DNA from: Antedon mediterranea
Lineage: Eukaryota > Echinodermata > Crinoidea > Comatulida > Antedonidae
NCBI RefSeq assembly: GCF_964355755.1
Contig: NC_092679.1
Span: 2,728,001-2,792,000, forward strand
Direction of reading: 5' to 3'
DNA length: 64,000 bases
The notes below the pieces were generated by a model. That model worked only from the letters and a program-made list of their open reading frames with translations, did not search any database and was not told where the DNA came from. This document shows, in pieces, positions 4,982 to 63,243 of the stretch. The translations under genes were made by a program, and so were the position numbers. Numbering within the stretch: the first letter of the stretch is position 1; each line of letters starts with the position of its first letter.

Positions 4982-5051
4982 ATGGCTGCGGCACGTTCCA
5001 TTACTGTTAAATGGATGACTGTACTGCTGATGCTTACTGTCAAAGCAGCAG
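4982..5051 (+). other. Gene 1 exon 1: signal peptide
   Basis: ATG opens a 23-codon leader: [12 protein letters not shown], then a hydrophobic core TVLLMLTV and small residues KAAG, typical of a cleavable secretion signal. The exon ends in phase 1 at CAG|GTAAGT. The next exon is 4.1 kb downstream. This ATG is chosen because it is the only one giving a leader in phase with exon 2. Confidence 0.85.
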
Positions 5052-60300: not shown

Positions 60301-63243
60301 GTGTTGCTCATACCTAAGCAACAACAAATAAGTGAATTGTATGATACAATAACTTATATTTACTGATACAACGAAAGCCAACAATAGATTACTGTAGGTA
60401 AATAATTGATTTCATTCATTCATCAATGAAAACGATTTCCATTGTCATTTGAATATAAACTATACATAGAAACTATGTTTTCTCTGAGATATACAAAAAC
60501 AATTAATTCAAAGTGTCACATCACTCTCGTGCGGTTTGCTGATTCATTAGTGCTCGATTGGCAGTTGGATAGAAGCTGTTACGAAACCTATTTGTATAGG
60601 CTACTTGAGGTGGTGGGCCGGTAACGTCTACCGCTACATAACACATCAAACACATTATCTCATGAATCTTCAATTTACAGTGAGATACCTTTTTCTCAAG
60701 ATATTAAAGTTTTAAGCTCTGTCTACACTATCTACTAGGCCCTACTATCAAAGTAGACTTGATAAAAAAAATGTGCCCAAATAGCATGGTGGTGATATGC
60801 ACAAATATGGTACTGATATGGCATCATATTTGGGCACATCACCATTGTTTTGTCACAAGTTGGATAGTGTAGACAGAGTTTTAGTTATTATTTCCATGGT
60901 AAATTTCACTATAATTCCAAAGGCAGCTGAAAAATACAATACATTTTGTTTTGAAGAATTTATTTTGAATAACTTTAATTAATTTGTTTTAAAGATATAT
61001 TGTTGATCAGTTAGCTGAAGAGTTTGAAATTGAAAAAAACAATATTATTGACGTACAGGTAAGAAAGACATTAAATTGGTCCAACAGTTTTAAGGAAATG
61101 CGTGAGAACGCGAGGAGACTTAAGAAAGAGAAAAGCGTTAAGGTCAATTTACACAGACGAGCGGTAACGGTAAGCGGAAACTCGCGTAGCTTGTCGTCCC
61201 ACGTAGATTCTGTATCTATCTTAGAGCGGAAACCGTCCGTATGCTCCGTGTTGTATGTAATGGTCATAAAGCTTGGTTCCCACTAGAACGCAACGCAAGG
61301 ACGTAGACGCAACGCAAGCAAGTTGACCAATGACAAACGACACATTGAATAATTCATCGCTTGTGATTGGTCAACTCACTTAATTTGCGTTACGTCGTTG
61401 TGTTGCGTCTCTAGTGTGAACCACGCACAAAGAATAACATAGATTCTATATCATATATTGTTACCGTTACCACTCGTCTGTGGAAATTGGCCTTTACGCG
61501 CGGGTCGAACGCTTGCAAATAACTAAAGCACATTTTCCTGTCAACAGATATCATCCTTGATAATAGTTTCTATTAAGGTTTAATTTCCTTTATGCTCAAT
61601 GGATGTTTTTTTTTTCTTTGTAGATACGCGAAGGTAGTGTTATTGTTGAATTCAAGCTTATTGGTGATGATGAGGACATAAATGTTGAAGATGTAGCTGC
61701 TATGATGGTTAATAGGGTAAACCATAAAACTAATATGATATATCTATAATAAAAGCAAACGAGTAACTTATTTATTATGATATGAGATACTTATACAGTA
61801 GAAAATGGTGGTAAAAATCATGGGAATCTGTCGAAAACTTCAATTGAATCAACTGTAAGGAAACATAATTCTCACACGTCACTCAATATAACATTCGTCA
61901 GCTTTATGTAAATAATTCCATTTTTTAAACACCGACGTAATACATACATACTCATTATGCTTTGTTTTAGCATACCTAATTAAAAAGTGCACTCATTTTA
62001 ATTGAGAGCCGTACTCGAATAAGCACTGTTGGTGTACTTAGCGATGAAATTGGTACATTTTTTTATGAAGTGTTCCACTTTGTAGGAGGCTCAAACAGTA
62101 TCATATCGTATCAGTTTATTACAATAAGATATAAATGATATTTTGAATCTGTTTATATCTTTTATTCGTATAGTTGCCAACTTTTGTATTCATGTTTAAC
62201 AACCAAAGTATACCTGTCATTAGTGTTGACGATCCAGTGATCATTTACAGACCTGAAACTATGACAACAGATTCACCAAAGTCACTCAGCACAGGGGCTA
62301 TAGTAGGAATTGTAGTGGGTACAATCGTTGTAATTGCACTAATAGTAGTCATAGCTGTTCTTATCGTAAGTAACGTATTATTTTTTCTCTGAATAATGTA
62401 GCGTATTTGTTAACCCACCAACCAAATCATAAATACGCTGAAATAACTGCAAAACTTGTGGCCTAATTATAAGGACAGTCTATACTCCCTTATTGAAGCT
62501 TGGACTAAGCGAGCCGAAATTAATTAAGCTCATCACGCCATGGGCATCATCTGAACTGTCGCTTGTGATTGGCCAAACGCACGTGCGTTGTGCTTAACGT
62601 TATTCTTTTTAATGTTGCGTTCCCGTGGAAACCAAGCTTAAGAAAAGCAACCGATTCTCTGTACTGTATCTATTAACGATGTATCATAGGAATATTCTGT
62701 AATAAAACATCACATGTGTATCTAGTAGTAACCTAACCCTTAACATAACCTTACATAATACAGGCATCAGTGTGTATGAATTAAATCCTGTACAGTATTA
62801 CCAAATATTCCTGATACTTCGGAAATAGATAGTATGTAGAGATACATACAGCAATGGGAACAACACAGATATGTGAATCTATTAGACAAAATATACATAA
62901 AACAATCACAATCAATTTTATTTAGGATTTGTTAAATTATAAAAGTAAACGAAAATTGGTATTATACTATATATTAATGCACTCTTTTTAGATACATAGT
63001 ATTAGTAAGAAGAAGAAAAACAAAGTATCAGGTGAACAAGATACAGAAGCCCTACAATTAGTAAGTAGGCCTACTGGTTTTTATAAATTGTATCTTATTC
63101 AATAACAGTTATAAGGAACTCTGATTTTATAAGTTAAAATGCTGAAATCACGGTTTGAGTGGATCGGAGCCTTGTTATCGTAGTATCAACCATAACATTG
63201 TTTATCTCTATGTTTTTTTCAGGCTGATACCGAAACAATATAG
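57375..63243 (+). CDS. Gene 5: SEA transmembrane mucin with truncated tail
   Basis: Ten exons sum to 1614 nt (537 codons plus TAG). Exon 1 (57375-57417) gives [14 protein letters not shown]. Exon 2 (57731-58733) holds a varied Thr/Ser/Pro region with two CxC elements and the first half of a pacifastin-like module ([13 protein letters not shown] ... EEECNTC), completed by 59395-59447. Microexon 59651-59654, SEA-like exons 60186-60257, 60995-61058 and 61624-61716, then SEA end, stalk and TM (62174-62365) follow. The tail is [20 protein letters not shown]... (62992-63060) and ADTETI-stop (63223-63243). Architecture equals gene 2 without the first pacifastin-like module; the tail lacks all tyrosine exons. 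Confidence 0.88.
57770..58615 (+). repeat. Gene 5 composite mucin region
   Basis: Three repeat types in series: TTEPS-like units (57770-58010), a 63-bp unit encoding [21 protein letters not shown] 21-mers with starts at 58156, 58219, 58282 and 58345, and five STIDQ units of 15 bp (about 58500-58590). CVCPTTSE and CFCLITSE elements separate the blocks. Confidence 0.88.
58825..59350. mobile_element. Palindromic family D element(s) in gene 5 intron 2
   Basis: Left part AAAGATGTAGTGGCCCCAAA, middle GGCCTATTCAAAATCTGATT, right part TTTTGGGGGACAATACATCT. The gap between the two halves contains AT-rich filler, so it may be two insertions. Confidence 0.6.
59651..59654 (+). other. Gene 5 exon 4: 4-nt microexon
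   Basis: ATAA between CGTTCAG and GTGAGT. It adds GAT AAT (D-N) and shifts phase 1 to 2 so that the SEA exon at 60186 is read. Flanks match those of gene 2 (CATATATxGACACCTTC). Confidence 0.9.
59715..59965. repeat. 17-bp minisatellite beside the gene 5 microexon
   Basis: About 13 copies of TTTATTTTTGTAGCATG, beginning 60 nt after the microexon. Gene 2 has a few diverged copies at the same place (35765-35860), so the array is ancestral and expanded here. Confidence 0.9.
60715..60883. mobile_element. MITE-like family B copy in gene 5 intron 5
   Basis: AGCTCTGTCTACACTATCTA left and GATAGTGTAGACAGAGTTTT right, 110 bp before the next SEA exon. Confidence 0.8.
61269..61428. mobile_element. MITE-like family A copy in gene 5 intron 6
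   Basis: GCTTGGTTCCCACTAGAACG left, CGTCTCTAGTGTGAACCACG right, with GTTGACCAATGACAAACGAC opposed to TCGCTTGTGATTGGTCAACT. Confidence 0.85.
62495..62642. mobile_element. MITE-like family A, diverged copy
   Basis: Right end GTTCCCGTGGAAACCAAGCTT. The interior GTCGCTTGTGATTGGCC is recognisable. The left end is decayed to AAGCTTGGACTAAGCG. It lies in the intron after the TM exon of gene 5. Confidence 0.7.

Follow-up and report, generated by a model that had tools for sequence, protein, structure and literature searches.

Five tandem genes predicted to encode a family of membrane mucins and receptors, three of them sharing a SEA-like juxtamembrane domain and a putative 4-nt microexon

Five neighbouring genes, all on the + strand as are the exons listed below, occupy the window, by which we mean the whole 64-kb stretch of DNA analysed here (C10:2728001-2792000; GC ∼34%). 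The original prediction had placed such a set at 4982-63243, a span that begins at the first ATG in gene 1 and ends at the gene 5 stop codon. The predicted models are open in frame with consistent phases (AG|..|GT exon joining), and internal stops are absent from all five predicted spliced proteins (1494, 969, 608, 370 and 537 aa for genes 1-5). The 40 exons of gene 1 join stop-free at canonical sites, and a chance origin is therefore unlikely. We consider the five gene structures, as predicted from sequence, very probably correct. Hydropathy and splice phases agreed with the proposal that each gene carries a leader, one transmembrane (TM) segment and phase-0 tail exons. All five proteins have a hydrophobic N-terminus (hydropathy 1.3-1.8) and a single dominant TM segment (19-aa hydropathy 2.7-3.5), and the single TM segment is followed by a short tail, as in SEA-type membrane mucins. 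Genes 2, 4 and 5 have short leaders of 14 aa without a basic n-region, and the leader of gene 3 is atypical. In the five models the tail exons are all of phase 0-0, and the extracellular modules are mostly 1-1. Upstream of gene 1, the window contains a 234-bp tandem pair at 1260-1719, repeated nearly exactly (97.8%) ∼1.6 kb further on, at 2912-3388.

Gene 1 (4982-29079; 40 exons, all phases agreeing) is the longest of the five. Its modules follow in the order leader, four half-VWC units, VWC, five WAP modules, EGF array, Cys-repeat, SEA-like domain, TM and tail. The profile check suggested for WAP, VWC and pacifastin gave Pfam matches above cut-off for all three, and for EGF as well: WAP at 2.5e-31 (108 bits), EGF at 1.8e-16 (60.5 bits), VWC at 3.5e-9 (37.3 bits) and Pacifastin_I at 5.4e-7 (29.7 bits). 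The module content resembles that of animals. An unnamed cysteine repeat is encoded twice by the exon at 24140-24454; it has no Pfam match in gene 1 and conforms to the consensus C.[FI][DN]PC....C...P.A.C..NYCGGC.AEFYD....V.C. Further copies of this repeat were found at 3772-4596 of locus L041 and in several exons of L042, a VWC-rich locus on C6. L052 and L041 (together C10:3680001-3700000) make up a long paralogue of gene 1 lying ∼0.9 Mb downstream, whose exons encode EGF, VWC, WAP, cysteine-repeat, half-VWC, SEA-like and TM segments in an order resembling that of gene 1. This paralogue carries the half-VWC/SEA-like/TM unit too, probably with the microexon included. An 18-bp minisatellite (TAACTTGTTGGTTATTAC) is present at 240-632 of the window and at ∼7756-8700 of L041, and is apparently common to the two chromosomal places.

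Three of the genes encode a juxtamembrane domain that had been called a SEA domain. Its exons lie at 25784-25858, 26145-26208 and 26499-26588 in gene 1 (last strand within 27272-27457), at 36139-36213, 36706-36769 and 36990-37085 in gene 2 (last strand within 37486-37707), and at 60186-60257, 60995-61058 and 61624-61716 in gene 5 (last strand within 62174-62365). The copies in genes 2 and 5 are 45-49% identical to that of gene 1. An autocleavage-type G/S-[VI]-[VI]-V site is found in the middle of the domain in all four copies (those of genes 1, 2 and 5 and of L041), as EGSIIVEF in gene 1 and EGSVIVEF in genes 2 and 5; reduced to the core GS[VI][IV]V, the four read GSIIV, GSVIV, GSVIV and GSIVV. 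In each copy the motif is followed by a helix-like stretch, one more strand-like stretch and then the TM segment.

The Pfam SEA model (PF01390) gave no match to this domain at E values up to 10, or up to 1 in a further search; the same model does find SEA domains elsewhere in this genome. Membrane mucins have been recognised by a SEA or VWD domain in Pfam together with phylogenetic support (PMC1552070), and the Pfam SEA domain was not found in these genes. Comparison by hhalign with a small alignment of canonical SEA domains, whose MUC1 member was checked against PDB chains, gave a probability of 39% with the GS sites aligned. A weak match was obtained with the profile of the IA-2 ectodomain (15.2 bits, below the cut-off of 29.7), which has a SEA-superfamily fold (PMC3174154), and a Pfam search showed weak similarity to dystroglycan, under the curated cut-off. 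Profile searches of PDB with the domain retrieved chance matches and no SEA chain. The motif, the position and the weak similarity to SEA and IA-2 thus uphold part of the earlier claim, but the Pfam SEA model does not recognise the domain, and we call it SEA-like, not SEA, on these sequence features. Searching the genome (354 Mb, 18 contigs) for further copies with the SEA-like exons found no copies but those of genes 1, 2 and 5, and the L041 copy retrieved itself alone. More distant members may therefore have gone unnoticed.

Genes 2-5 carry mucin (PTS) exons, as had been predicted; the PTS domain of a SEA-type membrane mucin is absent from gene 1. Gene 2 (30794-41162; 15 exons) encodes a leader, a half-VWC, a mucin exon (32910-34896) with a TTEPS repeat that ends in part a of a half-VWC, a further half-VWC, the SEA-like domain, TM and tail, and its Pfam match to VWC (2.6e-5) falls slightly below cut-off. 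Gene 5 (57375-63243; 10 exons) has a leader, a mucin exon (57731-58733) that likewise ends in half-VWC part a, a half-VWC, the SEA-like domain, TM and a 29-aa tail. Gene 3 (43021-49046; 9 exons) consists of a leader, one exon encoding both the mucin stalk and TM (43485-44911) and a tail with six tyrosines, and has neither a SEA-like nor a VWC module. Gene 4 (50579-54271; 9 exons), with its mucin and TM exon at 50911-51674, is in its 3′ half a recent duplicate of gene 3.

Tail exons of gene 1 (27934-29079) encode VMNKRK.. and ..VVYDNL..NPTYTDI.., with tyrosine sites NPYANLD, VVYDNL and NPTYTDI. Those of gene 2 (38204-41162) include ..SIKQDTANLP and KVENEYVNTVAVVDVIAM, and have a single tyrosine, in NEYVNTV. 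The tail of gene 3 (45062-49046) contains ..KQDTANLP, MYTETIEAT, three DENQY exons (47473, 47678 and 48190), KEKTIPE and NVAVQDESKLYINIK... Gene 4 has the same set (51825-54271), without the MYTET tyrosine and with tyrosine exons at 52775, 52979 and 53471. The three homologous DENQY exons of both genes encode YVNT, YAVV and YA(A/G)VYDIP, and are accompanied by KLYINI. The tail of gene 5 (62992-63243) ends in ADTETI before the stop codon and is tyrosine-free. The KQDTANLP exon had been taken to link genes 2-5; it is near-identical in genes 2, 3 and 4, but the gene 5 version is weaker.

Grb2 recognises YxN, Crk recognises YDxP and PTB domains recognise NPxY. Shuffling within the tails showed YxN to be enriched (5 sites against 0.99 expected, P 0.0007), with the reservation that the sites are few and two of them (YVNT in genes 2 and 3) are homologous. 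The corresponding values were P 0.037 for YDxP and P 0.055 for NPxY. An ITIM is [SIVL]xYxx[ILV], and an ITAM is a pair of YxxL/I with a spacing of 6-8. The tails gave no support for a reading as ITAM/ITIM: there is one ITIM-type site (P 0.32), and YANL-x10-YDNL of gene 1 falls outside the canonical ITAM spacing. The PTB and YxNQ/Grb2 motif meanings are supported in the literature (PMC3507883), and binding of Grb2, Crk and PTB proteins by these tails may be proposed from their motifs.

Between genes 3 and 4, identity reaches 98.2% in the distal tail exons but 89.1% in the surrounding introns (10.9% diverged). These exons differ by 1 nonsynonymous change in 180 sites and 4 synonymous changes in 42 (dN ∼0.006, dS ∼0.1). 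Such conservation over diverged introns indicates purifying selection, and hence probably two working genes. The family had been described as fast-changing, which does not hold for these tyrosine exons; the two proximal tail exons, with 5 nonsynonymous and 0 synonymous changes, show no constraint. These data bear on the strongest alternative, in which the proteins would be purely structural epithelial membrane mucins or matrix-type proteins, with ectodomains forming a glycocalyx and tails serving trafficking or cytoskeletal anchorage without tyrosine signalling. The long TTEPS repeats, the tyrosine-free tail of gene 5, the one tyrosine of gene 2 and the PDZ motif noted for MUC3-cluster tails (PMC9578598) are in its favour. 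However, the tandem triplication of the DENQY exon in genes 3 and 4, under strong constraint, and the YxN enrichment argue against it, and we regard it as unlikely. The same evidence divides the earlier proposal of tyrosine-motif signalling tails, which fits the enrichment but does not extend to gene 5 and finds one site in gene 2.

Shared DNA ties genes 2-5 together. A common first exon and promoter stretch is present at 30794-30836 (gene 2), 43021-43111 (gene 3), 50579-50621 (gene 4) and 57375-57417 (gene 5), with an invariant GTAAGT donor in the alignment, and a DNA search found no fifth copy in the genome. At the DNA level, the 3′ halves of genes 3 and 4 are also duplicates, as are the 5′ parts of genes 4 and 5. 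A second alternative holds that there were two origins, genes 1, 2 and 5 forming one family and genes 3 and 4 being an unrelated mucin to which unequal exchange brought the shared leader and tail exons. Genes 3 and 4 do have no half-VWC, microexon or SEA-like exons, and their mucin exon continues directly into TM. Yet they match gene 2 at both ends (first exon/promoter, KQDTANLP and YVNT exons), and the 5′ part of gene 4 is 84% identical to gene 5 DNA; two origins therefore seem improbable. The proposal of a single family with a membrane mucin/receptor layout is supported.

The introns also contain mobile and repeated sequence. A LINE-type reverse transcriptase frame (45815-47002, − strand) lies in a gene 3 intron, whereas the corresponding intron of gene 4 is shorter and lacks it; the element was probably inserted after the gene 3/4 duplication. 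A dispersed element of ∼100-160 bp (..TATGGGCACATCAC..) has many intron copies (16104-16262, 21970-22120, 24930-25091, 37949-38088, 46896-47001 and 52291-52436), and a second, of ∼180 bp, occurs at 35427, 36231, 40164 and 61267.

The membrane-proximal part of genes 1, 2 and 5 is one unit, composed of a half-VWC, a 4-nt microexon, the SEA-like domain with GS[VI][IV]V and then TM, in agreement with the original prediction, which had noted the SEA-like unit and a microexon in these three genes. Its exon-phase series, 12-21-12-22-20-00, is identical in the three. The half-VWC cassette comprises two exons of phases 1-2 and 2-1, whose TG|T junction restores the cysteine of CNTCTC; gene 1 has four such cassettes, gene 2 has two and gene 5 has one. 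The half-VWC exon ends in phase 1, whereas the SEA-like exon must be entered in phase 2, and a microexon is therefore required at this joint (phase 1 to 2). It reads ATAG in gene 1 (25614-25617), ACAA in gene 2 (35695-35698) and ATAA in gene 5 (59651-59654). In each of the three introns the best phase-correct candidate exon is of 4 nt, and 33 kb of other introns contained one comparable candidate. The pattern AGAYNNGTRAGT occurs 3 times in the 64 kb on both strands, against 0.51 expected, and always at the three microexons, of which those in genes 2 and 5 count as about one observation, not two, because the DNA of these genes is related across the region. The flanks are conserved, and the first residue encoded by the microexon is an Asp in all four copies (genes 1, 2, 5 and L041). 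L041 has ATAT at the expected place; its acceptor, however, scores poorly when a generic model of splicing is applied, and the same donor could there close an exon of 82 nt instead. These two features of L041 are what would favour the view that the 4-nt exon is unreal and that the phase gap is spanned by a different exon or by a shift in splice site, which we consider very improbable given the top rank of the 4-nt candidates, their scarcity in other introns, the conserved flanks, the absence of the pattern elsewhere in the window and the invariant Asp.

According to the models, skipping of the microexon would truncate the products of genes 1, 2 and 5 before the SEA-like domain and TM, and NMD would be the likelier fate of such a transcript, given the many downstream junctions. 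A regulated switch in genes 1, 2, 5 and L041, in which skipping toggles the receptors between a membrane-bound form and a secreted decoy, or turns expression off through NMD, is a doubtful proposition. MPC1 provides a precedent for a microexon of 4 bp that is constitutive (PMC9929638). As here, that exon is of 4 nt, its loss shifts the frame and its flanks are conserved (PMC9929638); the MPC1 gene is unrelated, and here the putative microexon sits where two domains meet, in three paralogues or more.

Taken together, we consider it fairly probable that these tandem genes form one family and encode type I membrane mucins and receptors with a putatively cleavable SEA-like module and, except in gene 5, tails that recruit adaptors. 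Gene 1 and its paralogue at 0.9 Mb would represent long modular receptors (WAP/EGF/VWC/pacifastin). Genes 2 and 5 would have retained the membrane-proximal unit (half-VWC, microexon, SEA-like domain and TM) and replaced the modular array with a mucin stalk, and genes 3 and 4 would have kept leader, mucin stalk, TM and tail alone. A receptor and shedding mechanism, to which we give somewhat better than even chances, may then be outlined. The glycosylated or modular ectodomain would cover the cell and engage surfaces or ligands, and the SEA-like domain may cleave itself at G/S, leaving two subunits joined until tension or ligand parts them. A SEA-like domain beside a structured N-terminal neighbour can indeed act as a proteolytic switch (PMC6586460). 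Phosphorylation of the YxN, YDIP and NPTY sites would recruit adaptors, and the tyrosine-free gene 5 would be a non-signalling member; the epithelial or immune role proposed earlier is hypothetical.

If this is correct, a set of SEA-like membrane mucins that lie in a cluster and have tyrosine tails arose elsewhere than in the known MUC3/12/17 cluster. The apparent origin would be a WAP/EGF/VWC receptor whose module array was swapped for a mucin stalk while the cleavable membrane unit was kept. The 4-nt exon, conserved where the two domains join, would offer a frame-dependent choice between membrane and secreted forms that is amenable to RT-PCR.

No paper or family name was retrieved by a literature search for SEA, pacifastin and mucin, an Rfam search gave no match and an NCBIfam search gave chance-level matches alone. 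The human MUC3A/MUC3B/MUC12/MUC17 cluster (7q22) shares with this locus tandem genes, a long PTS exon, a juxtamembrane SEA or SEA-like domain, TM and a short tail, and its cleaved SEA domains keep the two subunits together (PMC9578598). It differs in that here Pfam SEA is unmatched, a half-VWC adjoins the SEA-like domain and tyrosine exons take the place of the PDZ motif. MUC1 resembles these proteins in its PTS stalk, G/S-V-V-V site (GSVVV) and TM, and its tail bears tyrosines, as do tails here. Unlike them it has no VWC, WAP or EGF modules, and no sequence similarity was detected beyond the GS core; a PDB search with a MUC1 tail gave no match. Juxtamembrane domains of the SEA superfamily (IA-2/ICA512, Notch HD, dystroglycan and EpCAM) are also single modules before TM, whereas the scores obtained here against IA-2 and dystroglycan lie below the curated cut-offs and the neighbours and tails differ. 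The modules of gene 1 have the CNTCTC..G.W.CT...C core of pacifastin and VWC modules, but the first loop is longer than those known of pacifastin inhibitors and the module is a phase 1-2-1 two-exon cassette in a membrane receptor. Invertebrate SEA mucins are not unheard of, as a MUC1-like SEA mucin has been reported from a sea anemone (PMC9080433). Judged by sequence, the building blocks of this family are of known kinds.
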